Below, piece by piece: positions 1,666-23,615 of a stretch of DNA of 31,459 nucleotides. Position 1 is the first letter of the stretch. Each line of letters starts with the position of its first letter. Below the pieces are notes generated by a model that saw only the letters and a program-made list of their open reading frames with translations, searched no databases and was not told where the DNA came from. The position numbers were made by a program, and so were the translations under genes. Source of the DNA: a virus. The stretch is taken from the IMG/VR virus record IMGVR_UViG_3300030099_005398, positions 1-31,459 of that record. One strand, written 5' to 3'.

Positions 1666-2361
1666 CTAGATTATAGCCTTTGATCTCTGAGGGTCAACAG
1701 TTACTTTGTGAGAAACGTCATCATCTTCGTAGTATATGACACGGTTCTTTAACCTAAGAGAAATTGTAACTTTAGGATAATCTAATTTAAGAAAAGATTT
1801 GATGGCGTTGGAGATGGTCATGTCTGAATTTCTGTCGAATATATCAACCAAGAGGTTGCTGTAGTCAATTACTTTTATATCGCCATTCCTCTCAACTCTC
1901 ATATTTTCTTCATGAAAGTCTGCGCCCCAAGAATAGATATTAAACTTTTTTACAAACGAAAAATGACTCTCTAATCTATCCCTGAGTTTAACAAAGATAG
2001 GGTTAAACCAATAATGCTCACCCTTTGCTTGAGGTATGGCTTTAGATATGTAAGACATTTCTAGAGCAAATCCGTCTCTACTTATTTTTAAGCAAGGAGC
2101 AAAAAGATCTCCTAGAGACGAATGCTCCAAAGATTTATAAGCAGAGTACTCAGCTTTATTGTGTGATGGATAACCAACTTTTATTACTGTTCTAGAACAT
2201 TTTTCTTTAAAAGTAATTCTAGTGGTACCATCAATACTTAGTAACTTAAGTTTGAATTTTTTGGCTATTTTATCAGAGTGCTCCCACAACTCTTGAACCT
2301 CATCTTGAATGAGGCTTTGTGCGTAGGAATCAATTCTATTCAACAGGGAGGTTGATGCCAT
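1666..2361 (-). CDS. Protein-kinase-fold phosphotransferase-like protein
   Basis: A 231-residue protein. The second half has a kinase-type catalytic segment, DFHEENM (like the HxDxxxxN loop of small-molecule and protein kinases), followed by IKVIDYSN in the place of the metal-binding DFG/DxS segment. The first half contains TVIKVGYP, which may carry the ATP-site lysine. I place the start at ATG 2361 because AGGA lies 8 bases upstream; a start at 2394 would overlap the upstream gene further. It overlaps the gene at 2336 by 26 bases. The target could be a host protein or a small molecule. Only the fold is suggested; the family is not firmly recognised. Confidence 0.55.
   Translation of the reverse strand: MASTSLLNRIDSYAQSLIQDEVQELWEHSDKIAKKFKLKLLSIDGTTRITFKEKCSRTVIKVGYPSHNKAEYSAYKSLEHSSLGDLFAPCLKISRDGFALEMSYISKAIPQAKGEHYWFNPIFVKLRDRLESHFSFVKKFNIYSWGADFHEENMRVERNGDIKVIDYSNLLVDIFDRNSDMTISNAIKSFLKLDYPKVTISLRLKNRVIYYEDDDVSHKVTVDPQRSKAII
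1670..1675 (-). promoter_or_regulatory. CTATAAT box before tRNA array
   Basis: The minus strand reads GGCTATAAT, with the hexamer ending 11 bases before the first base of tRNA-Ile. Transcription starting about 7 bases downstream of the hexamer would leave a leader of roughly five bases. The box lies within the last codons of the upstream kinase-like gene. It matches the boxes found before many protein genes here. Confidence 0.6.
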
Positions 2362-2542
2362 AGGTTTTCCTGGCTGCAATAGCCATAAGCTCAAATTTTA
2401 GCATCTCAAGAGCGTCCCAGTCATCCTGCATCATGGAGCCTGGGACATATTCTGCTAAAAATTCATACTTAGGTTTGTAGTCTTTCCAGACTACTTTGTA
2501 GACTGCCTCATCTATAATCTGCTCTATGTGCTCAGACCTCAT
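2336..2542 (-). CDS. Hypothetical 68-aa protein
   Basis: A small acidic, helical protein with many Tyr, Trp and Met. ATG at 2542 overlaps the 3' end of the sigma-like gene by 11 bases and has AGAGGA 3-4 bases upstream, so it is translated from the same message. The end overlaps the kinase-like gene. No family is recognised. Its position between a sigma-like factor and a kinase-like protein suggests a host-takeover or regulatory role, which is inference only. Confidence 0.65.
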   Translation of the reverse strand: MRSEHIEQIIDEAVYKVVWKDYKPKYEFLAEYVPGSMMQDDWDALEMLKFELMAIAARKTYGINLPVE

Positions 2543-3125
2543 AATTCCTCTGAATAGACTTTTTCAAACTTTTAACAGCCTTATTGGTAAAGTGAATAGA
2601 CAACCCCGTCGAATTCCGAAGAGCAGAATGATTGACTGTGCCGTCCTTAGATAGGATGCCAGGATTTTTTAGAATGGCTTTTATAACTTTCTGAACATCT
2701 TCAGATTGAGCTTCAGTAAAGTCTTCAAGATCAACAGCAGAAGGTCCAAACTGAGCACGATCGTCTGCAAGCGTGTCAAACGCTCTATCATTGTCGCCAA
2801 AAGTTTGGTGCTGCTCAAGAGAGTAGTGCTTATTTCTGAATTCCATTCTCTTAGTTAATGGAATGCCTTTTTTAGCCTTACGATTCCATAAAACAGTCTT
2901 TGTATACTGATCAAAAAGCTTATTATTTATAGCTGCCTTAAACTTTTCTCCCGTTTTCTTTTCAAAGCCCTCTATCGATTCAAGGGCAGCGATACACAAA
3001 TCCGCATAGTTATCTTCATGGCTAGCGATAGCATCGTCGCCAGAGATCTTCATAGCGATAGTATGCATTAGCTTGCCATAACGCTCCTCATACAGAGCCC
3101 ATTCTTTGTCAGTTAATTCAACCAT
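2532..3125 (-). CDS. Sigma-factor-like protein (candidate late sigma, gp55-type)
   Basis: About 197 residues. The N-terminal half resembles sigma-70 region 2: a helix YGKLMHTIAMKI, then HEDNYADLCIAALESI and an aromatic/basic helix ending in TKTVLWNRKAKKG, which may contact the -10 element. The C-terminus (ALRNSTGLSIHFTNKAVKSLK) looks like a small helix-turn-helix such as region 4. This is the size of phage late sigma factors such as T4 gp55, which read a -10-type box without a -35. A TATAAT box ends 7 bases before ATG 3125; an ATG at 3134 overlaps that box and is less likely. If the call is right, this protein could itself read the CTATAAT boxes in the window. Confidence 0.5.
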   Translation of the reverse strand: MVELTDKEWALYEERYGKLMHTIAMKISGDDAIASHEDNYADLCIAALESIEGFEKKTGEKFKAAINNKLFDQYTKTVLWNRKAKKGIPLTKRMEFRNKHYSLEQHQTFGDNDRAFDTLADDRAQFGPSAVDLEDFTEAQSEDVQKVIKAILKNPGILSKDGTVNHSALRNSTGLSIHFTNKAVKSLKKSIQRNYEV

Positions 3126-3132
3126 ACTACTC

Positions 3133-3138
3133 ATTATA
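3133..3138 (-). promoter_or_regulatory. CTATAAT box, 7 bases before sigma-like gene
   Basis: Minus strand GCTATAAT followed by 7 bases and ATG 3125. No strong Shine-Dalgarno sequence is present. It is in the short gap between the genes at 3149 and 3125, so it would start a unit with the sigma-like factor as first gene. Confidence 0.5.
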
Positions 3139-3148
3139 GCACAAGAGG

Positions 3149-3870: not shown

Positions 3871-3876
3871 GAACTT

Positions 3877-3882
3877 ATTATA
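3877..3882 (-). promoter_or_regulatory. CTATAAT box, 6 bases before ATG 3870
   Basis: Minus strand CCCTATAAT with a 6-base spacer to ATG 3870 and no Shine-Dalgarno sequence. The box includes the TAA stop of the AAA+ ATPase gene, so promoter and stop codon share bases. Confidence 0.5.
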
Positions 3883-5263
3883 GGGCTGAAAGGTCAATAG
3901 TGTTAACAATTTCTAGTTTATCTTCAATAACTTCTGCGTCATACCTACCCGTTCCGTTATCAGGTTGTCTGTTAGATAGAATTTCGTCAGCTAATGGGAG
4001 TCCAACAAGTCTCTTAATAACCCTTTGAATATCTCTTGCTCCAAACTCCTCGGAATAACCATGCTCTACAATATAATCTACAATTTCAGGGGTGGCTTTA
4101 ATTGGATACTTTGATAATGCCAACTTAGCTATCTTTTTTATATCTTCTGACGTAAGATCGTTGAAGAATACAAAGTCATCAATTCTGCCTCTGAATTCTG
4201 GAGAGAATGTGACCTCAAGAGACTTCATGATCTGCTCTCTATCACCATCAGAACTTTTATCCTCATTAAAGCCTACCTTCGTTGTCTTCAAGTCCTTGAG
4301 ACCACAGTTAGATGTCATAATGAAAATTGAGTCTGTGAGATCAATTTCATTGCCAGAATTATCAGTAAGAGTACCTGTATCCAGCAAACTAAGTAGGATG
4401 TTGTATAACTTGGGGTGTGCTTTTTCGATTTCATCAAATACGATTGTCCATCGGCTGGATTTGTCAGCCTTTTCTTTAATTAGAGAGCTTTCAGAGTGTC
4501 CTATGTATCCTGGGGGAGAGCCTAAAAGCCTGCTGACCTCATGCCCGTTTGTATACTCCGCACAGTTTATAACCCAGAAGTGATCTGAATACTTCTCACC
4601 TAACTTACGAGCTAATTGAGTTTTACCTCTTCCGGTTTTACCAATAAAAAAGAGATTCATGTGCTTGCTAAACTCTACTGCCTTTAATTTTACAGCATCA
4701 GAAACACAAGCAATGGCTTCGTCTTGGCCGATTATGTTTTTCTTTAAAAACTTCTCCAACTGAACTATTTGATTAATAGTCTCTAGTTTACCTTTTTCTG
4801 GCTTAGAGCCATTCTTTTTAGTTTTCTTTTCAAGTTTCTTCTTGAACTCTTCATCCTCTTTGGAATCTTTTATCAAAGATTCGAGAATAAAAGATTCAGG
4901 AAGAACCTCGTTTATCTCGTAGCACACGTATTCAATTCTAAGTTCAGGATAGTATTCTGCAATTGTAGAGTAGTAAGCACCTAGAAGTTTATACTCTAAC
5001 AAAGGATCTTTTACAGTATCCTTAACCCGCTGTGCCTCCTCCATTCTTGATACGAAAGTTTTACGCTCATCAGTCGTTAAAGCGTCTGTAACTACAATCT
5101 TAACATACTTAACAAAATCAAAGTCACCAGACTTGGAGGCCTTGATGAACTTCTTTAGTTTGTTAAAGATGATTTTGAATTGTCTTTCAGTTAGACGCTT
5201 AACATGAATGATTGAGTTTAATTCAGCAGAAAAAGCCTTGATGCTATTAGTCTTTCTGGGCAT
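3878..5263 (-). CDS. Hsp100/Clp-type AAA+ ATPase
   Basis: 461 residues. A helical N-terminal region of about 165 residues, with a Lys/Glu-rich linker near 135-160, is unlike known Clp N-domains. The AAA+ module has NIIGQDEAI, Walker A GKTGRGKT (208-215), a pore-type segment GSPPGYIGHSE (248-258), Walker B IVFDEIEKAHP (274-284), sensor-1 IFIMTSNCG and a ClpA/ClpB D2-like small domain ending GARDIQRVIKR. This is a protein unfoldase or remodeller; no peptidase gene is seen nearby, so it may use a host protease or act alone. Start at ATG 5263 has AAGGA 6 bases upstream; ATG 5278 lies deeper in the previous gene and lacks such a site. Confidence 0.85.
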   Translation of the reverse strand: MPRKTNSIKAFSAELNSIIHVKRLTERQFKIIFNKLKKFIKASKSGDFDFVKYVKIVVTDALTTDERKTFVSRMEEAQRVKDTVKDPLLEYKLLGAYYSTIAEYYPELRIEYVCYEINEVLPESFILESLIKDSKEDEEFKKKLEKKTKKNGSKPEKGKLETINQIVQLEKFLKKNIIGQDEAIACVSDAVKLKAVEFSKHMNLFFIGKTGRGKTQLARKLGEKYSDHFWVINCAEYTNGHEVSRLLGSPPGYIGHSESSLIKEKADKSSRWTIVFDEIEKAHPKLYNILLSLLDTGTLTDNSGNEIDLTDSIFIMTSNCGLKDLKTTKVGFNEDKSSDGDREQIMKSLEVTFSPEFRGRIDDFVFFNDLTSEDIKKIAKLALSKYPIKATPEIVDYIVEHGYSEEFGARDIQRVIKRLVGLPLADEILSNRQPDNGTGRYDAEVIEDKLEIVNTIDLSAL

Positions 5264-6206: not shown

Positions 6207-6212
6207 ATTATA
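6207..6212 (-). promoter_or_regulatory. CTATAAT box, 5 bases before ATG 6201
   Basis: Minus strand ACTAAATACTATAAT, then 5 bases and ATG 6201. The upstream ACTAAATA resembles a T4-like late promoter core, and the plus-strand gene at 7689 is preceded by a similar ACTAAATACT. The box lies in the 15-base gap after the recombinase gene. Confidence 0.5.
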
Positions 6213-6216
6213 GTAT

Positions 6217-7640: not shown

Positions 7641-7646
7641 ATTATA
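7641..7646 (-). promoter_or_regulatory. GTATAAT box, 7 bases before ATG 7633
   Basis: Minus strand GGTATAAT, 7-base pyrimidine-rich spacer CTAACCC, then ATG. No Shine-Dalgarno sequence. It lies in the 55-base divergent gap with the plus-strand gene at 7689, so each side may have its own promoter. Confidence 0.5.
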
Positions 7647-7688
7647 CCAGCCATTTCAAATTTTACCAGAACTAAATACTTATATACC

Positions 7689-7967
7689 ATGGCTATCGTA
7701 CCTGAAAACCCCAACGACACGGTAACTAGAGCGGATCTTAATCAACAACTTGAGGTTCACGCCAAAACAATTGAACTTCAAATTTTGTTGTCTAAACAGC
7801 AGGAAGACATACTGCAAAAGCTAGCATATTGTGTTGACGACCATAAGAGAATGAATAAATCCTTAGATATTTTGGAGAGAAGATCATGGAAACAGGGCTG
7901 GTTATTCTGGGGTATGATATTCTCGCTAATCACTACAGCAGCAACTTTATTAAGTAAGGCAAGCTAA
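7689..7967 (+). CDS. Coiled-coil protein with C-terminal membrane helix (XhlA-like)
   Basis: 92 residues: a helical, heptad-like N-terminal region (about 12-65) and one C-terminal membrane segment (about 71-88, LFWGMIFSLITTAATLL) preceded by RSWKQGW. This layout matches XhlA-type holin-associated proteins, so a role in lysis or in a membrane complex is possible. ACTAAATAC and TATATACC precede the ATG; there is no Shine-Dalgarno sequence. It overlaps the next gene by one base (TAATG). Confidence 0.6.
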   Translation: MAIVPENPNDTVTRADLNQQLEVHAKTIELQILLSKQQEDILQKLAYCVDDHKRMNKSLDILERRSWKQGWLFWGMIFSLITTAATLLSKAS

Positions 7968-8131
7968 TGACCAACATTCACAGAGAGCTTCTCGATAAGA
8001 TTACCACTATTAAAAGTGATGAAAAGCCCAGCGACTCCTACGAAGATACCGAAACTTATGAGAGGACATTAGCAGATGCCTCAACTATGCTGGAAGATGA
8101 GATCAGAAAGCTTAGAAGCAGAGTAGTGTAG
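7967..8131 (+). CDS. Hypothetical acidic peptide (54 aa)
   Basis: ATG 7967 overlaps the upstream TAA (TAATG) and the frame runs to TAG at 8129-8131. The product is a charged, probably coiled-coil helix (ERTLADASTMLEDEIRKLR). It is coupled to the XhlA-like gene and may work with it. The 3' end lies 8 bases from the convergent MazG gene. No family is recognised. Confidence 0.6.
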   Translation: MTNIHRELLDKITTIKSDEKPSDSYEDTETYERTLADASTMLEDEIRKLRSRVV

Positions 8132-8139: not shown

Positions 8140-8490
8140 TTAATTGCCGTCGTCTTCGTGATCATTGTTTACGTGACGGATGCCGCCTCCGCTCTTAAAT
8201 CCCTCTGGGTATCTCGCCGTTAGCTTGTCTACGTTTGCCTGTGCAACCGAATCTAAATCGATACTCAGATTAGTAGCTGCCATGGCAACGTAATACAAAA
8301 TGTCTCCTAGCTCTTTCTTGGCGTGATCCTTATCAAGCATCTTACCGTGAAACTCACTCTTCTTAATGAGTTCACAGTATTCACCTGCCTCTCCCGCAAT
8401 ACCCAGAGCCCAGTTCATAGCAGCTTGAGAATAGGTAAGCTCAGTATTAGCGGTTCGCTTACAAGCTTTTTGAAATTTATTAAAGTCCAT
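8140..8490 (-). CDS. mazG: MazG-type nucleotide pyrophosphohydrolase
   Basis: 116 residues, a single all-helical MazG domain with GIAGEAGEYCELIKK, where the EAGE motif and following Glu bind Mg, and KKELGDILYYVAMAA with the second acidic pair (ELGD). It hydrolyses NTPs or dNTPs to monophosphates and pyrophosphate; phage copies have been proposed to adjust nucleotide or alarmone pools. Its start overlaps the stop of the dehydratase gene by one base (TAATG), so it is the distal gene of the glycan unit in reading order. Confidence 0.9.
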   Translation of the reverse strand: MDFNKFQKACKRTANTELTYSQAAMNWALGIAGEAGEYCELIKKSEFHGKMLDKDHAKKELGDILYYVAMAATNLSIDLDSVAQANVDKLTARYPEGFKSGGGIRHVNNDHEDDGN

Positions 8491-9452
8491 TACACAATCT
8501 CCATCCAGTGTTTAACCATCTCACCAACCATAGATTCAAAGGTATAAGCAGGCTCCCAACCTAAAACCTCTCTAATCTCGGTTGAATCTCCCTTAAGGAA
8601 GTTTAACTCATGAGGCCTCAAATACTTTTTGTCTATGGTGACGTGATCCTCATAGTTCAAACCTAAAAGGTTAAAAGTAACTTCACACATGTCTCTGATT
8701 GTCCTACTTTCACCAGTAGCCACAGTCCAATCGTTAGCTTGATCATGATTGAGAATCATATACATAGCTCTTACATAATCTCTAGAGTGTCCCCAGTCTC
8801 TAGATGCGTCCAAGTTTCCTAAAGCAAGTTTATCTCTCTTGCCTTTCTTAATTTCTACAGCGCCCTTAACAATCTTATTGGTTACAAAGTTGGAACCTCT
8901 TCTGGGGGATTCGTGATTGAAGAGGATGCCGTTACAGATGTGCATGTCGTATGCTTGGCGATAGTGCCGAGTAAGATTGTAGGCCATAACCTTAGCGCAG
9001 CCGTAAGGAGATGTAGGGTTCATGGGTGTCGTCTTTCGCTGAAACCCGTCGCTATCGATTGAGTTGCCAAACATTTCAGACGAGCTAGCCTGATACACCT
9101 TCACTTTTTTCTTAAGAGTTCTACAAGCTTCAAGAAGGTTTAGAACACCTAATGCATTAGTCTGAATGGTAAACGAGGGAACATCAAAGCTCACCCTAAC
9201 ATGGCTTTGTGCAGCTAAGTTATACACTTCGTCGGGTTGGACTTCGTTTACGATTCTATTGATCGATAGAGAGTCTAACAAGTCGCCGTAGTGTGTGGTG
9301 ACATTAAGACCTCTAATTCTGCTGTCTTGGTTTTCAGCGACAGAGTTCCTACGAACTATGCCGTGAACCTCATACCCTTTCGACAATAACAATTCGGACA
9401 AGTAACTTCCGTCTTGTCCCGCAATACCTGTAATCAACGCTACTTTATTCAT
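8490..9452 (-). CDS. gmd: GDP-mannose 4,6-dehydratase
   Basis: 320 residues. Extended SDR enzyme converting GDP-mannose to GDP-4-keto-6-deoxymannose, the precursor of GDP-fucose, GDP-rhamnose and GDP-perosamine. It has the nucleotide-binding GIAGQDG (9-15), VRRNS, a catalytic region SSSEMFG (123-129), YGCAK (Y150, K154) and the family hallmark NHESPRRGSNFVTNKI (from 179). The start at ATG 9452 fits the family N-terminus and sits 6 bases after a TATAAT box; ATG 9470 would add six residues. No GDP-fucose synthase (WcaG) is found in the window. Confidence 0.95.
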   Translation of the reverse strand: MNKVALITGIAGQDGSYLSELLLSKGYEVHGIVRRNSVAENQDSRIRGLNVTTHYGDLLDSLSINRIVNEVQPDEVYNLAAQSHVRVSFDVPSFTIQTNALGVLNLLEACRTLKKKVKVYQASSSEMFGNSIDSDGFQRKTTPMNPTSPYGCAKVMAYNLTRHYRQAYDMHICNGILFNHESPRRGSNFVTNKIVKGAVEIKKGKRDKLALGNLDASRDWGHSRDYVRAMYMILNHDQANDWTVATGESRTIRDMCEVTFNLLGLNYEDHVTIDKKYLRPHELNFLKGDSTEIREVLGWEPAYTFESMVGEMVKHWMEIV

Positions 9453-9458
9453 GATATG

Positions 9459-9464
9459 ATTATA
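9459..9464 (-). promoter_or_regulatory. CTATAAT box, 6 bases before gmd ATG
   Basis: Minus strand GGGCTATAAT, spacer CATATC, then ATG 9452. It lies just after the stop of the aminotransferase gene. No Shine-Dalgarno sequence is present. It could start an internal gmd-mazG transcript. Confidence 0.5.
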
Positions 9465-9469
9465 GCCCA

Positions 9470-10063
9470 TTAACCTTTAAAAACGCTCATGTTTCTTAAA
9501 TCAGGCCAATCCTGTATAGTCCAGGAACGTGGCTTCATAGCTTTAGCTTTCTCTAGTTTTTCAATGCCTAGCTTGGCCGTCTCTGGTGTCATGTAGTAGT
9601 GATAACCAACAGTATCGATGTCTTGGTCACGCCAAGGTACGTGTGGGAGTCTACCATCATAAGACATTTTTTTCAACTTTACTGCGTCCTCATAACTATC
9701 CGTTAGAATCATGCCCCCTCGACCTAAGCTGAGGTGTTTTTGATATTGAAAGCTCAGACACATTAAAGTGTTTGCGATGTAGCCATCTTCTTCCCAGTAA
9801 ACTGCCGCATCGACAATGTTAGTATTACCAATCAAGTAGTAATCATTCCAGCCAAAATTATCAAACGACCAGTTCAAGTTTAACTTCTCTGCCGTAAAAG
9901 GAACAGATATGTAAGTTCTCGCTGGGATAACGATGTCATCAGCTTCGGTATGCCGAAGACATAATTCAATTGCATGAGTGCAACAATCAACTGCGACGGC
10001 GTGAGGAGCGTTATAGAATTCTGCTACCCTAACTTCAAACTCTTCAACCCATGCAAAACTCAT
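9470..10063 (-). CDS. Compact DegT/DnrJ-type sugar aminotransferase
   Basis: 197 residues against about 370 for the family. The retained parts are the N-terminal PLP fold (FYNAPHAVAVDCCTHAIEL), a Tyr-Ile-Ser substrate segment (PARTYISVPF), a shortened VDAAVYW in place of the usual Asp-containing cofactor segment, and SFQYQKHLSLGRGG with the PLP lysine (Lys ahead of LSxGxGG). The C-terminal domain is cut to MTPETAKLGIEKLE. Next to gmd it could make GDP-perosamine, or be the PseC-type step of a nonulosonic acid route. It overlaps the upstream methyltransferase by 4 bases. Activity is uncertain because of the size. Confidence 0.75.
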   Translation of the reverse strand: MSFAWVEEFEVRVAEFYNAPHAVAVDCCTHAIELCLRHTEADDIVIPARTYISVPFTAEKLNLNWSFDNFGWNDYYLIGNTNIVDAAVYWEEDGYIANTLMCLSFQYQKHLSLGRGGMILTDSYEDAVKLKKMSYDGRLPHVPWRDQDIDTVGYHYYMTPETAKLGIEKLEKAKAMKPRSWTIQDWPDLRNMSVFKG

Positions 10064-10590
10064 TTGATGGCCTCTACATTTAAACTAATCAGCACGCCGT
10101 TCTCCTTATCCATGTGAGGTATGTATGCTTGAGAGTGATCATCATGATGAGAGTGTTCGGTTTCTCTCCAATCATAAGGGTTAACATCTTTAAACCCACT
10201 GCCCAGGAGAACATCCTTAAGCGAATCATAGTCGTAAGTTGTCTTATGGTAAACAGGTGGAACATTCCATCTACCATACAGAGGACCTATAACTTGATTT
10301 AAATTTATCTTTTGATGAGTGTACAGATGAGCTAGGACAGCAAAGTTAGGGACCGCTAACCTAAGTATGCCATCCTTTTTAAGGACTCTCTTCCACTCTT
10401 TGAGGACACCTAATACTTCATGCCTATCAAAGTACTCTAGCAAGTGAGATGCGTAAACAACATCACAGCTATCGTCATCGTAGGGTAAGTTAGTAACATC
10501 ATTTGATACAACATGAGGATAACCCACGTAGTCTATGTGGTCCCAACCCTCACCAAAATTTCTCATACCGCAGCCTAAATGCAATTTCAT
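10060..10590 (-). CDS. Class I SAM-dependent methyltransferase
   Basis: 176 residues. It begins directly with motif I, LHLGCGMRNFGEGW, followed by DVTNLPYDDDSCDVVYASHLLEYF (motif II/III region; split here by position only) and a post-motif segment with ILRLAVPNF. It is short, lacking any N-terminal cap, like many glycan-cluster methyltransferases. The C-terminus is His/Asp-rich (residues about 145-155). The acceptor is not known; a sugar hydroxyl or amine of the island's product is likely. Overlaps on both sides show co-translation. Confidence 0.8.
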   Translation of the reverse strand: MKLHLGCGMRNFGEGWDHIDYVGYPHVVSNDVTNLPYDDDSCDVVYASHLLEYFDRHEVLGVLKEWKRVLKKDGILRLAVPNFAVLAHLYTHQKINLNQVIGPLYGRWNVPPVYHKTTYDYDSLKDVLLGSGFKDVNPYDWRETEHSHHDDHSQAYIPHMDKENGVLISLNVEAIK

Positions 10591-11779: not shown

Positions 11780-11784
11780 GATTC

Positions 11785-14183: not shown

Positions 14184-14856
14184 GATGAAACAACCTTTTA
14201 AATTTTAACTCTGCAAGGGACCAGTCTTGTTCAGTGTCTATATCGCAAACTAGACTTTCTGGTATAGGGAAAGCTATGCTATTATAGTCATACGAGAACG
14301 GAGAACTGAAATTTGTCTTGCTCCATCTAAATTGAGCAGCCTCCTCATAAAAAACGGGGAGATCCTGCGTTCTAGTGTTGAAATTGCCCGGTGAGAGCAT
14401 TTCACAGGTGTCATTGTTTACAGTGAAGATTCTGCCTGGATGGTAATCTAATTTTCTGACACTGAAGCAATGGTCCTTATCAGTTTGTATCAGCTTGAGA
14501 TAAGATTCTTTGATACTCTCTTTTCTTACAAAAGGATTACAGAATAGAGTGCAACAGTAATCATATTTTTTTCCTTCAAATCTCTTTAAAAAGTCTAAAG
14601 TAACCTCCCATAAGGGAGTGAAATCATCCGACAAGCGTGGGGCTCTATAGTAAGGGACCTTTGCGCCACATTTTATAGCGATGTCAGCTATCTCTCTGGA
14701 GTCAGTAGAGACAAACACTTCATCAAACAAATCACTTCCCAAAGCTTCGTTAATAGCGTAGTCTATCAAAGGCTTTCCACAAAAAGATTTTATATTTTTA
14801 TCTTTTATGCGTTTACTGCCAGCGCGAGCAGGAATTACGGCCACGTTCCTAATCAT
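14176..14856 (-). CDS. CMP-nonulosonic acid synthetase (NeuA/PseF-like)
   Basis: 226 residues. The CTP-binding signature IPARAGSKRIKDKNIK (8-23), FCGKPLIDYAI, FVSTDS, and the acidic VCDIDTEQDW near the C-terminus identify a cytidylyltransferase that activates the acid from the NeuB step to a CMP-sugar. YYRAPRLSDDFTPLWEVTLDFL resembles PseF more than NeuA. A TATAAT box ends 6 bases before ATG 14856 and no Shine-Dalgarno sequence is seen, so this gene probably heads a sub-unit running neuA-neuB-GNAT-pseB. Confidence 0.9.
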   Translation of the reverse strand: MIRNVAVIPARAGSKRIKDKNIKSFCGKPLIDYAINEALGSDLFDEVFVSTDSREIADIAIKCGAKVPYYRAPRLSDDFTPLWEVTLDFLKRFEGKKYDYCCTLFCNPFVRKESIKESYLKLIQTDKDHCFSVRKLDYHPGRIFTVNNDTCEMLSPGNFNTRTQDLPVFYEEAAQFRWSKTNFSSPFSYDYNSIAFPIPESLVCDIDTEQDWSLAELKFKRLFHHE

Positions 14857-14862
14857 GAATCT

Positions 14863-14868
14863 ATTATA
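14863..14868 (-). promoter_or_regulatory. CTATAAT box, 6 bases before NeuA-like ATG
   Basis: Minus strand GGATCTATAAT, spacer AGATTC, then ATG 14856. The hexamer contains the TAA stop of the upstream transferase gene. It would allow the nonulosonic acid genes to be transcribed separately inside the island. Confidence 0.5.
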
Positions 14869-15709
14869 GATCCAAGGAGTCCAATTTACTACATCCAGAT
14901 TGTAAGGTTATGCCGGTGTCTGATAAGGTGTAAGTTCCCACCCCGTTATCATTTAAAAATTTAACGTATTGAGAGAATAGTGCTACGTTCATGGCAGAGT
15001 GATTACCAAAAGATCTATTAGCTTTTTCTTCAGGAGACCCGAAAGTGATATTAGGCAGGGCAGGAAGTCTCCCTAACAACCATTCTATCTCTCCATGAAC
15101 ACTATGATGAACATCCCACAGAGAGGCTGGATTGTACGAACCTCCGTTACAATACTTCTTACTCTCTACAATGTCGCTCAAGCCTTTTCTTATTTTATTC
15201 TTTAATTCTAAATTCTCATCCCAGTAATGAGAGGCAGAGGTCTCATCAAACCCAATGTATACGATATTCTGAAAGCCCATAATGTAAGCCAGATGTGTAG
15301 CCAACAGAAGGATGCTGGTGTCGCCCTTTAAAGATATATCTGTTTCGCTTTTGAATTTATCTAAAGGACCTTTTGGGTCAGCAGAGAAGTGAACAACTCT
15401 ATCCTGATTCCAAAATAGATTGTCCATGTATGAGAAGGCTCTTTTCTTTTCAACGTTGTTGTAGTCTACGAAAATAGGAATTTCTTTATTGCAATACTCA
15501 AACAAATAGACGGCATTTGCTATGTGTGCCGAGATTGCGTAAGAAATCCAATTGGCTCCTTCGTAAGCTAAGTTAACTCCAATTGAGGGTTTACCTTTTA
15601 AAAATTGTATATCCCTCTGTGTTAAATTATTTAGATAAGGAGATGTGCCTACAATATATCCAGTCTCGCCTTTGTGTATTCCGTTGTACTCATGTAGTTG
15701 CGTTCTCAA
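14864..15709 (-). CDS. DUF115/GT42-like protein, candidate nonulosonic acid transferase
   Basis: 281 residues. KGETGYIVGTSPYLNN (about 13-28) matches the IxGxGPSL start of DUF115 and GT42 sialyltransferases, and GDTSILLLATHLAYIMGF then NIVYIGFDE matches their second nucleotide-site block. GT42 and Maf-like proteins use CMP-sialic or pseudaminic acid, the product of the neighbouring genes, so transfer of that sugar is a reasonable but unproven role. The start is TTG 15709, overlapping the upstream stop (TTGA); no ATG exists before the conserved region. Confidence 0.55.
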   Translation of the reverse strand: MRTQLHEYNGIHKGETGYIVGTSPYLNNLTQRDIQFLKGKPSIGVNLAYEGANWISYAISAHIANAVYLFEYCNKEIPIFVDYNNVEKKRAFSYMDNLFWNQDRVVHFSADPKGPLDKFKSETDISLKGDTSILLLATHLAYIMGFQNIVYIGFDETSASHYWDENLELKNKIRKGLSDIVESKKYCNGGSYNPASLWDVHHSVHGEIEWLLGRLPALPNITFGSPEEKANRSFGNHSAMNVALFSQYVKFLNDNGVGTYTLSDTGITLQSGCSKLDSLDL

Positions 15710-16611
15710 TTTTTTAATCCCACTAGATCGTCATACTCACCTTCTATAATTCTCTTCGCCGTAGGAAGCCAACTATAAACATTCATTATTTTTTCTCGCG
15801 ATTTAGAGATTTCATCAATCAAATCAGATTCAACAGGTTTAGATATTATATCTAAAAGTTCCTGCTCTGCATTCTCTTGTGTAATGTCCAGCTTATAAAA
15901 CGATTTAGGTGAGAAGTAAGTATCAACATTTGTTGAGCCCCAGTAAATTGGAACCGTGTACGCCATGAAAACATCCGAAAGTTTTTCACTAGCACAACCT
16001 AGGCCGCTGTCATTCTCCAGGGTTAAACAGTAATCGTATTGTTTTGCCCAATCAAACTTTTCATTATCTCCAAAAGTAGAGAATTCTTTGAAGTCATCTC
16101 CTAAGCCCTCTTGATCCATACCGATACCATATACGTCCATCACGCCAGGGTAGCGATTACAAAATCTTTTAATAAACTGTAGACGCTTCAGATGCCCCAT
16201 GCACATGCGTTTATTGCTAACTATGGTGCAAAGCTTTTTAGTTCTTTTCTCCCTTTTAAAGTTTAGCATTTCGCTGTAGGTATGCTTGGAGGACCACTCA
16301 CAAACTCTGTAGAAATCTCCATTAGAATATCTAAACTTGTATGGGGTCGTATATCTGTCCCAATTAGGAGTTCTTATCCAAGGAGGCTCTCTCTCAAAAA
16401 GTATAACTTTGTTCTGATCAATATCATCTAAAGATATTGAGGGATCTACCTGCTCACTTGCGATAATCCAGTCAGCATCATAGATGTCTTCTACAATTAC
16501 TAAATTCTCCCACACACCATCATGCTTAGGAGTTAGCTTTTTAAACATCTCGCGTAACTCACTGCTGGGTAAACCCCAGGGGCAAGTGATGGCTACCTTA
16601 ACTGTGTTCAC
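15706..16611 (-). CDS. GT10 alpha-1,3-fucosyltransferase-like enzyme
   Basis: About 301 residues. The GT10 donor site is plain: CLTLENDSGLGCASEKL, then FMAYTVPIYWGSTNVDTYFSP (short parts LEN, EKL, VPIYWGS are the conserved core). These enzymes move fucose from GDP-fucose. A GTG at 16611 overlaps the FkbM gene stop (GTGA), with GAAGGG about 13 bases upstream; a longer start at 16632 would lie further in the upstream gene. It is the second fucosyltransferase-family gene in the island, so the glycan may have two deoxyhexose linkages. Confidence 0.9.
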   Translation of the reverse strand: MNTVKVAITCPWGLPSSELREMFKKLTPKHDGVWENLVIVEDIYDADWIIASEQVDPSISLDDIDQNKVILFEREPPWIRTPNWDRYTTPYKFRYSNGDFYRVCEWSSKHTYSEMLNFKREKRTKKLCTIVSNKRMCMGHLKRLQFIKRFCNRYPGVMDVYGIGMDQEGLGDDFKEFSTFGDNEKFDWAKQYDYCLTLENDSGLGCASEKLSDVFMAYTVPIYWGSTNVDTYFSPKSFYKLDITQENAEQELLDIISKPVESDLIDEISKSREKIMNVYSWLPTAKRIIEGEYDDLVGLKN

Positions 16612-17201
16612 TTTAATTGCCACCCTTCCCACACAAATTCGTAATTGAACTTTTCGTTGTGTGTTTCTTTGAGTTTATTTCTGAGTGCAAATCTTCTCAT
16701 CCCATCTGGGTCAGCAAAGGTGTGAAATTGAATTTGAATATTAGATATTCTTTCTATCAGCTTAGTCTCTATTAAATGCGACAGAAGAGGATACTCTCCA
16801 CCTTCAATATTAACCTTAGCCAAATCTATTCTATCAAGTGATAACTCTTTTAGAACATCTGAAACTCCCCTTAAAGAGATGTCCTCCATGATCTTACCCT
16901 CTTTGAAGACACTGGATTCATCACCGTTCAAGCTGATTTTAACGCTGGAGTCTTCATCAGCTATTCCAAAATTATGAACATGTACATCTTCTACCTCTTT
17001 GAACCTGTCAACTATAAAATCGTAGAAGCTGGAGATAGGCTCAAATATATGCACTTGGCATCCATACTTACTGTGAATATCATGAGCAAAGTCTCCACGA
17101 TAGCCGCCAATATCCAACACAACGCTATCTTTCGACAATTCATAATTAAGTAAATGGGTGTTGTCGCCATCATCACCAAACCAACGCTGAAATTCATTCA
17201 T
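16608..17201 (-). CDS. FkbM-family methyltransferase
   Basis: 197 residues. SAM motif I is VVLDIGGYRGDFA, followed by VHIFEPISSFYDF (the FEP motif of FkbM) and a late block with IDLAKVNIEGGEYPLL (usually KIDVEGxExxVL). FkbM enzymes are O-methyltransferases common in glycan clusters. A TATAAT box ends 5 bases before ATG 17201. The gene overlaps the GT10 gene by 4 bases. Confidence 0.85.
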   Translation of the reverse strand: MNEFQRWFGDDGDNTHLLNYELSKDSVVLDIGGYRGDFAHDIHSKYGCQVHIFEPISSFYDFIVDRFKEVEDVHVHNFGIADEDSSVKISLNGDESSVFKEGKIMEDISLRGVSDVLKELSLDRIDLAKVNIEGGEYPLLSHLIETKLIERISNIQIQFHTFADPDGMRRFALRNKLKETHNEKFNYEFVWEGWQLK

Positions 17202-17206
17202 AGAAT

Positions 17207-17212
17207 ATTATA
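17207..17212 (-). promoter_or_regulatory. CTATAAT box, 5 bases before FkbM ATG
   Basis: Minus strand ACTAATACTATAAT, spacer ATTCT, then ATG 17201. No Shine-Dalgarno sequence. The upstream ACTAATA resembles the ACTAAATA in front of the box at 6207-6212. Confidence 0.5.
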
Positions 17213-17221
17213 GTATTAGTT

Positions 17222-17821
17222 CTAAAATAAAGGCACAGACTGTTTAGTATATTGAGGTTGTTCAGTCTGATAAAAGTATGGGTCGTTGGGTGTGAGTATG
17301 TTGAAATGCCTATGTATGGAGGCTAGCCCTACGTCAAAGGCAGTATTTGATTCCAAACAAGAGTGTATAACTTGAGCGCAAGCTTTAATATATCTTTCTG
17401 ATAGGTATAGGATAGCATGAGTAGAGCACATGTTGTACACTTTCTTATAATCGTTACAATGTCTTGAGGCCAGAACAGCACCACGATGACCATGAGGACT
17501 TATCTTTACAAATCCATGATCAGAAACTCCTAAGTAAATTGCATCTGTATTTTTAGGAATCCTAAGACTAGGTTTAAAATGCTCTGTTAAACCTATATCA
17601 TCCTCTAGAATTAGACAATTGGGCTTAATATTTGATAGGAGAGCTAGGTGAGACATGCCACAACCTATGATCCCCTTCTCATGCTTAACACCACTGAACC
17701 TTTGAAAAGGCTGACCTATTGATTCTAAAAGTTTTTTAGACTTTTCTAATCTCTCTACAGCCTCATCCAAATTTATCAATATGGTTGAGATAGAATTTAG
17801 TTGTGTAGTAATTTCTTCCAT
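17222..17821 (-). CDS. GT25-type glycosyltransferase
   Basis: 199 residues. The GT25/LPS-glycosyltransferase pattern is present: ILINLDEAVERLEKS (14-28), FQRFSGVKHEKG, GCGMSHLALL and LILEDDIGL, where EDD is the metal-binding motif. MCSTHAILYLS and the C-terminal half fit the shortened fold of this family, which adds galactose or glucose in LPS core synthesis. It overlaps the next gene upstream by 25 bases, so it is co-translated. Confidence 0.8.
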   Translation of the reverse strand: MEEITTQLNSISTILINLDEAVERLEKSKKLLESIGQPFQRFSGVKHEKGIIGCGMSHLALLSNIKPNCLILEDDIGLTEHFKPSLRIPKNTDAIYLGVSDHGFVKISPHGHRGAVLASRHCNDYKKVYNMCSTHAILYLSERYIKACAQVIHSCLESNTAFDVGLASIHRHFNILTPNDPYFYQTEQPQYTKQSVPLF

Positions 17822-18573
17822 GCGCTGTAGATGGCTTGGTCATCCCAGTATTCAGCCTTAGTGTCATTGCCCTCATCACCATGGTAATTTACTTTTGCGA
17901 AATCACACTCAGGCTTTATGAGATTAAAAGTTTCTAGTTCGGGTGAGTGATACACATCCGTGATCGCGTCATAAACAAGGCTCATATCGCTTGCAATGCC
18001 CCTGTAAGAGACTTTATCGCCTAATAAGGGCAATACCTCACTATTGAAATATGATTGATCTGTGATCGCCCCGTAAAGCCTAATATCCTTATGTCCGTCA
18101 TCTACGGCTCTCTCTATAGAGCGGTGAGTTCTCTTGTTAGAGTCTATGCTGCCAATTATACCAGCACTTTTCACTTTAAATTTATTATTCCTAGGAGGAT
18201 ATTTTTGAACAACATTAGGTATTACATTGCCCTCAACTCCTTGCCACTCTTTTTGAAATTCAGAGACAAAATGAATGTCATCATAAATCAAATCTTCTTG
18301 CTTCTTTATCGGAAACACTTGAGTTTCATGGCAAGACAGAATAATTTTTTCAACAGGAGGACGCTTAGTAAATTTCATAAAATGATAAATGACGATATCA
18401 TTCTTGCTAAACTTTAAATTACTTTGAGCGTCCCACCTACAAGTAACACCTTCCCACTTAGTAGGAGTGTACAGGCACGCTGCGCGTCCTTTCTCGTTAA
18501 GTAAATTAACGAGGTTATTAAAAGCTACGGTCGAGCCCCCTGGGCCACCCCATCCACTTATAACTTTAATCAT
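17797..18573 (-). CDS. GT4-like glycosyltransferase
   Basis: 258 residues. It has the N-terminal GWGGPGGSTVAFNNLV as in GT4 enzymes, a VSEFQKE segment with VIPNVVQ, IIGSIDSNKRT for donor binding, and VYHSPELETFNLIKPECDF, a variant of the ExFGLxxxEAM nucleotide-sugar motif. It is short for GT4 (about 370 is usual), so it may be a trimmed member. It overlaps the next gene by 8 bases. The donor sugar is unknown. Confidence 0.7.
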   Translation of the reverse strand: MIKVISGWGGPGGSTVAFNNLVNLLNEKGRAACLYTPTKWEGVTCRWDAQSNLKFSKNDIVIYHFMKFTKRPPVEKIILSCHETQVFPIKKQEDLIYDDIHFVSEFQKEWQGVEGNVIPNVVQKYPPRNNKFKVKSAGIIGSIDSNKRTHRSIERAVDDGHKDIRLYGAITDQSYFNSEVLPLLGDKVSYRGIASDMSLVYDAITDVYHSPELETFNLIKPECDFAKVNYHGDEGNDTKAEYWDDQAIYSAWKKLLHN

Positions 18574-19726
18574 TTAACTTGTATCCCGTATCTTTTATGG
18601 CTCTAAGATACAAGTCATATCTAGCGTGAGTTTGCTTTCTACCATCAAATAAATCTTTGGTACGATCGTGCAAGTTTTTACCTAATTCAATTCTGTGATT
18701 TTTATCCTTACAAAGCTTAGAAAGAATTTTAACCCATTCGCTTCTGGGTGCGTCATGATCGATTAGATATCCTGTCTCTCCGTTTACAATAGTGTCGTCA
18801 TAACACCCCACGTTGCTAGCTACCAAGGGTATCTTATACCTAGAACATTCTGCAACTTTAATATCAGATTTAGAATCATTAAATTGATTCATCTGTAGAG
18901 GAGCTATCGCAACGTCCATATCGGCGTAGTAGCGACCGTAAGAGTCTGGAGGTAATGCGTAGTGAATATTGTAGTTCTTCTGGCCCTTGAAGCCACTTAG
19001 AAGCTCACGCATGTATTCAGGCCAGACAGCAGCCTCCCAAGTTCCCTTCTTCTTAGGATCCTTTGGAGGATGTCCATAGAAATTCCACTGCACATTTTCT
19101 CTCCCAACTTTTTGATTTACGAGGTGAGGAACAGCGTTAAACACTTTTACATCTCCCCTATGGTGAATACCAGCCGCGTAACCAATTCTTGTAAACTTAG
19201 CCTTGCTTCTCGGGTGATTCCAAGCAGGTAGAGAGTAATCAATTACATTCTTTATAATTGCTAAACATTTTCCAATAAAAGGTTTAATTCTGTTCGCAAA
19301 CTTAAGTTGAGTTACCGTCACCAAATCTGCTGTATGATAACAGAATTTAGTGATCTCATCTAATTTGTGAGTTTTGTAAGTTTCAAAAAGGTGATGCTCT
19401 TCATATAAATCTGTGAGAAGATCATCAGTATCAAAATGAACAAATTTACCAAGTTGCTTACCTAGACCAATTACTCTAGCTGTGTAAGGCCCACCGTATT
19501 TTAATATATTGGCTACAAATACGATGTCACACCAGTTTAAGTCTTTAAGCTGCTCAGGAGGAGGTTGAATCTTTTTTTCAGGGTCAACCTCCAATGGGTT
19601 GTCGGTGTATCTAACTTCTACCTTATCCGACAATTCCTCTTGCATCATTTTCATCGGGGATAACTGCCTGTAATAGCTGCACCCACCATGATTTGCATAT
19701 ACAACCAGTATCTTTAATTTACGCAT
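18566..19726 (-). CDS. GT4-like glycosyltransferase, first gene of the glycan island
   Basis: About 386 residues. The N-terminal VVYANHGGCSYYRQLSPM, central IGYAAGIHHRGDV and a C-terminal GT-B domain with SDIKVAECSRYKIPLVAS followed by NGETGYLID match GT4-family enzymes. I start it at ATG 19726 (MRKLKILVVY), 5 bases after a TATTAT box; ATG 19771 falls within the terminator hairpin and is unlikely. It is read immediately after the terminator at 19751-19785, so it needs its own promoter. Confidence 0.8.
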   Translation of the reverse strand: MRKLKILVVYANHGGCSYYRQLSPMKMMQEELSDKVEVRYTDNPLEVDPEKKIQPPPEQLKDLNWCDIVFVANILKYGGPYTARVIGLGKQLGKFVHFDTDDLLTDLYEEHHLFETYKTHKLDEITKFCYHTADLVTVTQLKFANRIKPFIGKCLAIIKNVIDYSLPAWNHPRSKAKFTRIGYAAGIHHRGDVKVFNAVPHLVNQKVGRENVQWNFYGHPPKDPKKKGTWEAAVWPEYMRELLSGFKGQKNYNIHYALPPDSYGRYYADMDVAIAPLQMNQFNDSKSDIKVAECSRYKIPLVASNVGCYDDTIVNGETGYLIDHDAPRSEWVKILSKLCKDKNHRIELGKNLHDRTKDLFDGRKQTHARYDLYLRAIKDTGYKLND

Positions 19727-19731: not shown

Positions 19732-19737
19732 ATAATA
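19732..19737 (-). promoter_or_regulatory. CTATTAT box, 5 bases before the first island gene
   Basis: Minus strand GGCTATTAT, spacer GTCTT, then ATG 19726. It differs by one base from TATAAT and has the same spacing as the other boxes. It lies directly downstream of the terminator, as expected for an independent start of the glycan island. Confidence 0.45.
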
Positions 19738-19750
19738 GCCATGTGTGTAT

Positions 19751-19785
19751 AAAAAAAACTAACTCAGGCATATAACCTGAGTTAG
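19751..19785 (-). terminator. Rho-independent terminator
   Basis: Minus strand: a perfect 10-bp stem CTAACTCAGG/CCTGAGTTAG with a 7-base loop (19785-19759), followed by eight T (19758-19751). It ends transcription from the replication and membrane-protein genes to the right, before the glycan island. The plus strand lacks a T-run after the stem, so it acts one way. Confidence 0.9.
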
Positions 19786-19810
19786 AAACTATGATTCTCT
19801 CTTCGTTTTT

Positions 19811-21453: not shown

Positions 21454-21499
21454 TGTATTTCTCCTTTAAGCTATTGATTTGCAAACGAGTGCTAACAAG

Positions 21500-21922: not shown

Positions 21923-22316
21923 AAATTGTAGCGAATAATTTAGGGTTAAGATGGTGCAGAGTCATTGTTTGCTTTGATAAGGCTACCACAAGCTGCTCGT
22001 TGGTCAATAGCATTTTTTGCTGATCGAAGTTTTTTTCATCAAATCCTACACCCTCTAGCATGCAGTGGTAAATCTCATGAATTATAGTCTCTCTAGCATC
22101 AATATCATCAAGACTCATTTCTAATTTAATTTTACGCTCATCCCAAATGCACAAGCCATCCACTTTTTGATCACCCTCATAAAGATCGGAGTGAAGTTCA
22201 AATGTAAAAGTAGACCAACCCAATTTTACATCTCCAATTTCTCTATCAATAAGTTTATTGTAGATGTGTTTTTTATCCTTTATAAAAGGAAAGTCACTTG
22301 GCTTGTTGTTCTTCAT
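21915..22316 (-). CDS. HEXXH metalloprotease-like protein (copy 2)
   Basis: 133 residues. HEIYH at residues 80-84 with a probable third ligand E107 in TNEQL, and the closing block HHLNPKLFATIY. It aligns with the gene at 924-1277 (HEICH, TNEYL, LNPELF), with 24-27 residues between the HExxH and TNE in both. It overlaps the helicase gene by 23 bases and follows the weak site GGAGCCC. It lies inside the replication block, so it may act on a replication or host protein; the substrate is unknown. Confidence 0.7.
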   Translation of the reverse strand: MKNNKPSDFPFIKDKKHIYNKLIDREIGDVKLGWSTFTFELHSDLYEGDQKVDGLCIWDERKIKLEMSLDDIDARETIIHEIYHCMLEGVGFDEKNFDQQKMLLTNEQLVVALSKQTMTLHHLNPKLFATIYA

Positions 22317-23604
22317 GTGAGGGCTCCTTCATCTGTAGAGTAGAGTAATCGACTCCGACATTAATTAAATAGTGTTGTTTTGAGTCTCTTGCTTTGATAA
22401 CAAAAACTCTCATGGCACCCTCATCATACTCTTCTTGAGTCTGATTCAAAGAAATAACCCAATCAGCAGGTCTAATTTTTCCGTAGGAGTCACCAAGTTC
22501 AGCATCCGTAATAATGTTCACTCTTCTGGCCTGCCTGTTAGTTTGAGAGGCTGTCCAGATGAGGCAGTTGTTTTCCACTCCTAAACCTCTAAGCTCTTCA
22601 GCGATACGCTGCTGGGCTTGATATTCAGAATCAATAATACGATTTGGGCGTAGAAGCTCAAGGTAGTCTACAATAATCAAATCTGGCGTAAATCCACTAT
22701 GAAGCTTTAACTGCACCAAAAGAGATCTGAGCTTGTTTACGTTGGATTCGCCTGTGGGAAATTCTTTGATGATAAGTCTACCATTAGTTCTCTCTTTAAC
22801 TTCTCGAAGTCTATCCTTGAGTTTGAGTTGAGCAAGTGGTTTTTTTAAATCACTATTCCTAATCTCAGTTAGGACAGAGTCGAATCTACCAGCAATTTTA
22901 TCCTGGCTCATCTCCAGGGACACGTATAGTACATTTTTACCCTCGTAGATCGCATGAGCACCTTGATTAACTAGATAAAGAGATTTGCCAACACCAGGGG
23001 GTGCGACAACTATCGCTAGTTCCTTAGGGGCTAGACCACCCTCAAGGTGTCTATCGTGAGTTCTAAAAGCTGTACCAATCTTAGTTTGGTTACTCTCCTC
23101 ATAAGATCGTCTAAGTCTGTTTTGAACATCATCAAAATATTCTTGACCAACATCCACGTTGCGGTTTACCAGCAGAGCATCCTTAACAAGTTCTTCTACC
23201 TGAGCAATATCACCCTCTTCATTAAGAATAACAATTGCCTTTCTAACTGCCTGCTCCATTGACTTGTTTCTAGCAAACTGCTCAACGGTATCTAGCAGAA
23301 ACTCTCTATCTCCTAAACAAGCCTTATCAATAGTGTTGATTTCTGCGAGAGTGTTTTCATAGTCCACCCCAAGATCGCAAGCTCCAGAGACTGTCGCATT
23401 TATGTAATCTGGCAGAATGGAATCGGAAGGAAGTCTCTGATACTTTTCATAGTAATTTCTTACGCCTAGAAATACGTTCTTGTATGCTGGGAAATCGAAA
23501 TACTCAGGCTTCAGTAGAGGAACGATCTCAGAGAAAAACTCAACGTCTTTCTTGAGAAGATACAAACAACCACGCTTGGTGTTGTCTGAGATGTGGTAGG
23601 GCAT
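22294..23604 (-). CDS. DnaB/gp41-like replicative helicase
   Basis: 436 residues. N-terminal helical domain (about 1-170) as in DnaB/gp41, then the RecA-like ATPase domain with Walker A APPGVGKS (201-208), VLYVSLEMS, Walker B LIIVDYLEL (309-317), and a later ATPase-loop block with TASQTNRQA (near 350) and VIKARDSKQ. It unwinds DNA ahead of the fork. A TATCAT box ends 5 bases before ATG 23604 and there is no Shine-Dalgarno site. Confidence 0.9.
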   Translation of the reverse strand: MPYHISDNTKRGCLYLLKKDVEFFSEIVPLLKPEYFDFPAYKNVFLGVRNYYEKYQRLPSDSILPDYINATVSGACDLGVDYENTLAEINTIDKACLGDREFLLDTVEQFARNKSMEQAVRKAIVILNEEGDIAQVEELVKDALLVNRNVDVGQEYFDDVQNRLRRSYEESNQTKIGTAFRTHDRHLEGGLAPKELAIVVAPPGVGKSLYLVNQGAHAIYEGKNVLYVSLEMSQDKIAGRFDSVLTEIRNSDLKKPLAQLKLKDRLREVKERTNGRLIIKEFPTGESNVNKLRSLLVQLKLHSGFTPDLIIVDYLELLRPNRIIDSEYQAQQRIAEELRGLGVENNCLIWTASQTNRQARRVNIITDAELGDSYGKIRPADWVISLNQTQEEYDEGAMRVFVIKARDSKQHYLINVGVDYSTLQMKEPSHEEQQAK

Positions 23605-23609
23605 TCTGT

Positions 23610-23615
23610 ATGATA
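23610..23615 (-). promoter_or_regulatory. TATCAT box, 5 bases before helicase ATG
   Basis: Minus strand CCCTATCAT, spacer ACAGA, then ATG 23604. A one-base variant of TATAAT with the same spacing. The gap to the next gene is 30 bases. It probably starts the helicase, metalloprotease, UvsY-like and later genes. Confidence 0.4.

Follow-up and report, generated by a model that had tools for sequence, protein, structure and literature searches.

TATAAT-type boxes next to start codons as probable leaderless promoters in uncultured, apparently T4-related phages

We analysed the entire virus record IMGVR_UViG_3300030099_005398 (31,459 bases, hereafter the window), which is probably a fragment. Ten genes on its minus strand have a TATAAT-type box, mostly with a C in front, only 5–7 bases before the ATG start codon. 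Very probably these boxes are −10 promoter elements, with transcription starting on the A of the start codon and giving leaderless mRNAs, which ribosomes would enter at the 5′-terminal AUG. The ten boxes, given with the gene that follows (ORF, open reading frame), are:

3133–3139 (−): CTATAAT, 7 bases before the ATG at 3125, sigma-like gene
3877–3883 (−): CTATAAT, 6 bases before the ATG at 3870, ORF of 85 amino acids; overlaps the stop codon of the upstream ORF
6207–6213 (−): CTATAAT, 5 bases before the ATG at 6201, ORF of 71 amino acids
7200–7206 (−): CTATAAT, 5 bases before the ATG at 7194, UvsX/RecA-like recombinase
7641–7647 (−): GTATAAT (G class, TGG before TATAAT), 7 bases before the ATG at 7633, Pyr_excise glycosylase
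9459–9465 (−): CTATAAT, 6 bases before the ATG at 9452, nucleotide-sugar epimerase family
14863–14869 (−): CTATAAT, 6 bases before the ATG at 14856, cytidylyltransferase; overlaps the stop codon of the upstream ORF
17207–17213 (−): CTATAAT, 5 bases before the ATG at 17201, methyltransferase-like
19732–19738 (−): CTATTAT, 5 bases before the ATG at 19726, glycosyltransferase
23610–23616 (−): CTATCAT, 5 bases before the ATG at 23604, DnaB-like helicase

The original prediction, made from the letters of the window, had named these ten boxes, and all hexamers and spacings were as claimed, including the TATTAT at 19726 and the TATCAT at 23604. The C that it had noted before most hexamers was present in nine of the ten, the gene at 7633 having a G. 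All six starts for which it had cited a Shine-Dalgarno (SD) sequence carried one. Among the 39 minus-strand starts listed in the window, 10 were boxed, 12 had an SD-like sequence and 17 had neither.

The box in the window and in related contigs

In the window, the minus strand had nine occurrences of TATAATN5–7ATG with ORFs of any length, far above the mean of 0.73 in 300 dinucleotide shuffles of this strand, which gave at most 4; the plus strand had two. When an ORF of at least 60 amino acids was required, the minus strand kept eight sites and the plus strand lost both. The top hexamer at 5–7 bases was TATAAT (8 of its 20 occurrences), followed among the non-overlapping ones by AAGGAG (3 of 17).

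Relatives were gathered with the sigma-like gene (14 loci) and with UvsX (the best 80 of 213 loci). From 31 records, we formed a set of 15 contigs: group A, with nine close contigs including the window, and group B, with six more distant ones. Gene starts in the 15 contigs were called without reference to the box. Related contigs are not independent, and the key tests were therefore counted per ortholog group. One 36-kb IMG/VR contig encoded UvsX and sigma-like proteins identical to those of the window.

In 30 related records, TATAATN4–8ATG occurred 255 times, versus 85 for a reversed-pattern control (summed). At spacings of 5, 6 and 7 bases there were 17, 5 and 15 TATAAT sites in group A and 17, 6 and 1 in group B, with at most three at any other spacing. 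With alternative starts allowed, 77 of 727 genes were boxed at a spacing of 4–8 bases, 70 of these at 5–7 bases with an ATG. The spacing peak was present in 36 UvsX loci with at least 59% identity, many of which are parts of the same contigs. The single locus at 50% identity had one box site, and no peak was found in 40 loci at ~33% UvsX identity or in parts of T4 and Syn9.

The spacing was constant for each orthologous gene: 7 bases for the sigma-like and Pyr_excise genes (nine contigs each), and 5 bases for UvsX (nine contigs of group A and four of group B) and the 71-amino-acid ORF (seven contigs). An exact TATAAT preceded 13/15 UvsX, 9/11 sigma-like, 9/9 Pyr_excise and 8/12 71-amino-acid ORF cluster members. 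Before the sigma-like gene, CTATAAT formed an invariant 7-base island amid variable flanks in all nine close-clade contigs; the distant homologs in G012 and G026 had no exact box. The UvsX box keeps its spacing of 5 in the window, where 19 bases separate the end of the Pyr_excise gene from UvsX, whereas in the other eight close contigs it overlaps the Pyr_excise end. ORFs of 85 amino acids, alike by eye, were boxed at a spacing of 6 in G002 and G006. Genes related to the 19726 glycosyltransferase had TATAAT in G007 and G012 and CTATTAT in G001, and the G001 homolog of the DnaB-like helicase had the identical CTATCAT 7-mer at the identical spacing. For the cytidylyltransferase (14856) and methyltransferase-like (17201) genes, no ortholog was present among the 15 contigs.

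The motif is C-TAT(A>T,C)AT-R. Among the 102 TATAAT sites located 5–8 bases before the ATG of an ORF, the preceding base was C in 82 cases, G in 14, A in 5 and T in one. At 603 sites with no ORF start within 30 bases, it was A in 196 cases, T in 170, C in 136 and G in 101. The base after TATAAT was mostly A or G. Enrichment at 5–7 bases before ATG was 29-fold for CTATAAT (70 sites), 7.9-fold for CTATTAT (14 sites), 8.4-fold for CTATCAT (12 sites) and 8.1-fold for GTATAAT (10 sites), compared with 1.8-fold for ATATAAT and 0.5-fold for TTATAAT.

The box had been expected to be commoner at the heads of transcription units than at internal genes. This was borne out in group B, where it preceded 19/143 genes behind a wide or divergent gap, 2/22 behind a gap of 10–39 bases and 3/157 behind a gap of less than 10. 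The contrast was weaker in group A (12/150, 12/34 and 13/216, respectively).

Two further observations concern boxed genes of the relatives. In the distant-clade contigs G017, G019, G022 and G025, AAGTCAAA lies 5–6 bases before the uvsX TATAAT and is a possible regulator site. Five proteins of 800–965 amino acids with similar N-termini (G012_6, G017_46, G019_47, G022_7 and G026_39) are preceded by a T-rich stretch and then TATAAT at a spacing of 5; G017_46, the only one of the five searched, had no PHROG match at E-values up to 1.

Transcription from the start codon

At bacterial start sites, the base before +1 is usually a pyrimidine. If the A of the ATG is +1, a pyrimidine is therefore expected directly before the start codon. 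We found one at 67/70 boxed starts and in 32/33 ortholog groups, compared with 47% of the SD starts (n = 240) and 52% of the others (n = 343). Six held-out contigs had 15 TATAATN5–7ATG sites, with a pyrimidine in 10/10 cases when C or G preceded TATAAT and in 2/5 cases otherwise. Three of these ten sites precede genes whose orthologs were part of the first count (one UvsX, two MazG-like), and the other seven make up five gene groups by eye.

In six relatives, a single near-palindromic TATNATA box lies between two divergent genes, one for a gp55-like protein and the other for a DNA polymerase, assigned by a PHROG match in the two copies searched. The divergent start codons are separated by 17 bp in G001, G002 and G007, by 16 bp in G017 and G026, and by 14 bp in G022. 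CTATNATAG is intact in five of the six pairs, and G022 has a T for C in one half-site. That scan did not return a divergent pair in G019, the seventh contig with the gp55-like gene. With a 17-bp gap, the first bases of both start codons are therefore 18 bp apart (G001, G002, G007); in the other pairs they are 17 bp (G017, G026) or 15 bp (G022) apart. Divergent transcription starts sharing a −10 element are most often 18 bp apart, according to the accessible parts of PMC12825309 and PMC10268837.

Runs of at least five T were found just upstream of 7/33 boxed groups, versus 40/644 unboxed starts (p 0.005). Because of the sharp spacing peak, the ortholog-constant spacing, the pyrimidine at −1, the divergent pairs at 15–18 bp, the boxes before tRNA genes (see below) and the upstream T runs, there is a strong case that the box is a −10 element and that +1 would be the A of the ATG. 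The original prediction had read the boxes in this way, and the spacing peak, the −1 pyrimidine and the divergent pairs speak in its favor.

Two explanations without a promoter were considered. The box could be an RNA element, either a ribosome standby site or an endonuclease site that exposes the AUG, which would suit its fixed position relative to the AUG. However, it also occurs before tRNA genes and in the near-palindromes between divergent genes, and the T runs just upstream of boxed groups speak against such a role as well, making an RNA element very unlikely. Chance, or coding conservation at the end of the upstream gene, might be suspected from the relatedness of the contigs and from those boxes that overlap an upstream gene's end. 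This is hardly credible given the dinucleotide shuffles, the UvsX box that kept its spacing in the window although Pyr_excise ends 19 bases away, and the sigma-like gene's box that is invariant in variable flanks.

Two promoter classes and their candidate readers

The boxed starts fell into two classes: CTATAAT, as a class without a −35 element, and GTATAAT with a TTGACA-like −35. For the C class (26 ortholog groups), similarity to TTGACA was 2.70, versus 2.78 in shuffles (standard deviation 0.16). For the G class (7 groups) it was 4.35, versus 2.72 in shuffles, and 0/300 shuffles reached it. A TGn before the box was found in 4/7 G class groups and 2/26 C class groups. A sigma-70 consensus scan of the window gave no excess of −35/−10 pairs (33 vs 38.1 and 35 vs 35.5 shuffled). 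Several GTATAAT promoters are located toward one contig end in the relative G001, whose minus strand has five TTGAC/TTTAC-GTATAAT promoters at 85–91 kb. Three of the five precede ORFs of at least 40 codons, with 7 bases between box and ATG.

The tRNA array and the other features of the window that bear on the promoters are:

1670–1676 (−): CTATAAT of the tRNA-array promoter, 11 bases before tRNA-Ile
1692–1697 (−): TTGACC, −35-like, of the tRNA-array promoter, spacer 16
2532–3125 (−): sigma-like protein of 197 amino acids, with a sigma region 2-like N-terminus and a helix-turn-helix (HTH)-like C-terminus
19759–19785 (−): terminator-like intrinsic hairpin and T run, with an 11-pair stem and the tail TTTTTTTTAT, upstream of the 19732–19738 box

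Terminator-like hairpins showed no overall excess in that half of the window (10 vs 11.3 in shuffles). CTATAAT was found 11–12 bases before tRNA-Ile in the window, G001, G002, G003, G006, G007, G013 and G019, and 7 bases before it in G017; G026 had CTATTAT at 13 bases, and G025 had no box. Among the close contigs, the sequence upstream was TTGACC or TTGACT in the window, G003 and G006, and TTGATC (by eye) in G002, G007 and G013. The original prediction was right about the position of the tRNA-array box, 11 bases upstream, but the box belongs to another promoter class than most of the boxes, because TTGACC lies 16 bases upstream of it. The absence of a −35, which it had noted for the one box inspected closely (7194), holds for the 26 groups of the C class as a whole and fails for the G class and the tRNA promoter, with partial elements at 3870 and 3125.

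Two proteins are candidate readers of the C class. The gp55-like family comprises proteins of 113–118 amino acids from seven contigs, all outside the window. Aligned with a ten-member gp55 alignment, it gave an hhalign probability of 88% (E-value 3.1e-6, 95 of 114 columns). Matches to Pfam Sigma70_r2 had E-values from 3.1e-5 to 2.5e-4, one of five being above the cut-off, and four of four proteins matched the PHROG late-sigma family (E-values 0.0026–0.032). The predicted structure had a predicted local distance difference test score (pLDDT) of 84. In Foldseek, the T4 gp55 chain of an open complex (7d7c_F) had the top TM-score, 0.72, but an E-value of 0.39, and was second by E-value. VIA placed 7d7c joint highest (Z 10.3, root-mean-square deviation 3.4, 111 residues), tied with other region-2 domains. 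A viral structure library returned weak matches (best E-value 0.022), with several phage sigma factors and none named gp55 among the matches listed. G001_28 and its relatives are thus related to gp55 in sequence and in predicted fold. The boxes of their genes were CTATTAT with ATG in G017, G019 and G026, CTATAAT with ATG in G022, and CTATGAT with GTG in the close clade.

The sigma-like protein of the window matched Pfam Sigma70_r2 at an E-value of 2.8e-4, below the curated cut-off. Its AlphaFold model (pLDDT 72) had sigma factors among the best structural matches, which were weak or middling (Foldseek best E-value 0.21; VIA Z up to 7.3). Searches against PHROGs (E-value up to 10) and the sequences of solved structures gave nothing convincing. 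As the original prediction had pointed out, the gene carries the box itself. A similarity of its product to gp55 was not detectable (hhalign 0.6%, E-value 0.094), a weak score that does not exclude a relation. An identification with gp55 is not supported. The likeness to T4 late promoters, also raised there, is apt, although it was in relatives, in a part of the genome beyond the window, that we found the gp55-like factor.

In the most likely mechanism, the CTAT(A>T,C)AT-R class, which lies 5–6 and sometimes 7 bases from the ATG and heads replication, recombination, sigma-factor and sugar-related genes, would be read by the host RNA polymerase with the gp55-like sigma, as T4 gp55 reads −10-only late promoters. 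The GTATAAT class with its TTGACA-like −35, usually 7 bases from the ATG, would probably be read by the main sigma factor of the host. The remaining genes would rely on SD sequences or start close behind the preceding gene. We favor the gp55-like protein as the reader because of its relation to gp55, because T4 gp55 uses −10-only promoters, and because no relation to gp55 could be detected for the sigma-like protein of the window; the chance that the gp55-like protein reads the C class is slightly below even. The boxes, their spacing, conservation and base preferences, the divergent pairs and the gp55 relative are read directly from the sequence, whereas the start at the ATG, the recogniser, the timing of expression and leaderless translation are inferred.

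Two other readers of the boxes have to be weighed, neither of which bears on the leaderlessness of the mRNAs. All −10 elements could be read by the host main sigma, with the phage sigma-like proteins acting otherwise. In favor of this, housekeeping promoters of bacteria usually have TATAAT as their consensus, a −35 accompanies the G class and the tRNA promoter, and boxes 3870 and 3125 have partial ones. However, the −35 similarity of the C class does not exceed shuffles and TGn is rare in it, a C strongly precedes the box, T or C is tolerated at its fourth base, and the lineage encodes a gp55-like sigma. We regard this reading as doubtful, though to be taken seriously. It is unlikely that the window's own sigma-like protein reads the CTATAAT boxes. 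The weak Sigma70_r2 match, the sigma-like model with its HTH-like C-terminus, and the presence of the gene in the close clade, G012 and G026 would fit such a role, but a sigma region 4-like HTH usually implies a −35, which the C class does not have.

Several findings weigh against leaderless promoters read by a phage sigma factor. When the 70 boxed starts were left undivided, the −35 score was 3.37 versus 2.96 in shuffles (0/500); splitting by the base before the box, with ortholog averaging, put this signal in the G class. The consensus scan also found a partial −35 at box 3870 (TTAACA, spacer 18) and at box 3125 (ATGAAA, spacer 18, with TG before the box). Since the tRNA CTATAAT has a −35 and these two boxes have partial ones, a C before the box is on its own no mark of the phage-sigma class. 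None of the ATG starts had CTATGAT, which in the close clade precedes the GTG starts of the gp55-like genes. Boxes come and go among orthologs, exact TATAAT being sparse for the DNA polymerase (2/7 members) and the epimerase (3/25 members). In two large, more distant contigs (98 and 112 kb), boxes were rarer, with five exact sites each. At 23604, contrary to the pyrimidine trend, the ATG follows an A. The ThyX start, which has no SD, is preceded by CTATAAT at a distance of 21 bases (window 29493–29521, minus strand), and G001 has a similar leader; conserved boxes are thus not all leaderless. The original prediction had noted that boxed starts generally lack SD sequences, and no start was seen to have both; we did not count this as evidence, because it is partly a matter of geometry, an SD having no space between the ATG and a box 5–7 bases away.

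The lineage and comparison with known systems

In addition to the boxed genes, the window encodes ribonucleotide reductase, gp32-like, ThyX, SbcC-like and calcineurin-like phosphoesterase proteins. From 8490 to 19726 (minus strand), sugar, NeuB, cytidylyltransferase, glycosyltransferase and methyltransferase genes form a block in which several genes are boxed individually. Two small ORFs at 7689–8131 (plus strand) break the run of minus-strand genes and are divergent from the Pyr_excise gene. PHROG families in G001 (91 kb) included a major head protein, head maturation protease, head-tail adaptor Ad2, tail sheath stabilizer and tail sheath, names that also label T4 parts in the T4 record. We take the lineage to be one of T4-related, contractile-tailed uncultured marine phages, far from named ones. 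Megablast with window positions 1–25000 gave only matches to tRNA stretches among the 20 listed of 49, tblastn with the window's sigma-like protein matched no phage record, and every UvsX match to named phages was below 60% identity. A UvsX scan of genome contigs returned four loci, the sole close one (82%, L132) being binned in a metagenome-assembled genome named Altibacter sp.; this binning alone is weak evidence for the host.

T4 late promoters share several traits with the C class: a −10-like element only, a diverged region-2 sigma and, in this lineage, a gp55 relative. In T4, late promoters are recognised by gp55 with gp33 and gp45. T4 gp55 promoters have a −10-like element and no conserved −35, and basal initiation persists when gp55 lacks the C-terminal region that carries the clamp-binding motif (accessible text of PMC7892883). 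The gp55-like protein here has 113–118 amino acids, compared with 185 in T4 gp55. As a control, we used 50 annotated starts from a 46-kb stretch of T4, after setting aside alternative internal starts, repEA, repEB and genes truncated at its edges. TATAAAT was upstream of 13/50 starts, at 15–29 bases and in one case at 41, and 11 of the 13 had an SD. In contrast, the box here abuts the start codon and has a C before it; CTATAAT-R at 5–7 bases has neither the sequence nor the position of a T4 late promoter.

Leaderless expression itself has precedents. Most middle and late mRNAs of the Thermus phage phiYS40 are leaderless according to the accessible part of the review PMC3594737, which refers to RNA evidence, whereas here leaderlessness is deduced from sequence. 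Phage transcripts are often leaderless, as remarked in PMC5312081. In bacteria, a Pribnow-like box ~12 bp before the start codon has been taken as the sign of a leaderless gene (PMC3160421, PMC12340547, as far as their available text goes), and the boxes here lie at such a distance. These TA-led genes differ in being cellular, with TANNNT in high-GC groups, and a C before the box is not reported in the available text of the two papers. Bidirectional promoters likewise share a symmetric −10 (accessible parts of PMC12825309 and PMC10268837); in the divergent pairs here, both start codons lie at the expected transcription starts, so both mRNAs would be leaderless. Among the titles and abstracts listed in our literature searches on leaderless phage transcripts and promoters, confined to open-licence papers, none reported a start-codon-abutting box in T4-type phages. 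The arrangement is known in some bacteria and a Thermus phage, and is unusual for T4-related phages.

It is possible, at somewhat less than even chances, that promoters of a phage sigma factor are fused with start codons in this lineage. A shortened gp55-like sigma, without the stretch that holds the clamp-binding motif in T4, would read CTAT(A/T/C)AT and start transcription directly at the start codons of the gene encoding it and of the DNA polymerase, helicase and recombinase genes, two of these from one bidirectional promoter. If true, such promoters would constitute a dedicated leaderless gene-expression programme. This would illustrate a way of joining −10-only promoters of the T4 type to start codons, and it raises the question whether the phage makes the ribosomes of its host favor leaderless initiation, a shift that has been proposed for phiYS40 (accessible part of PMC3594737). 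The two-gene promoter would be a compact test case, because the 14–17 bp between its start codons leave almost no room for conventional leaders. For an uncultured phage lineage, the boxes would amount to a readable promoter code, from which transcription units and start codons could be called from the sequence.

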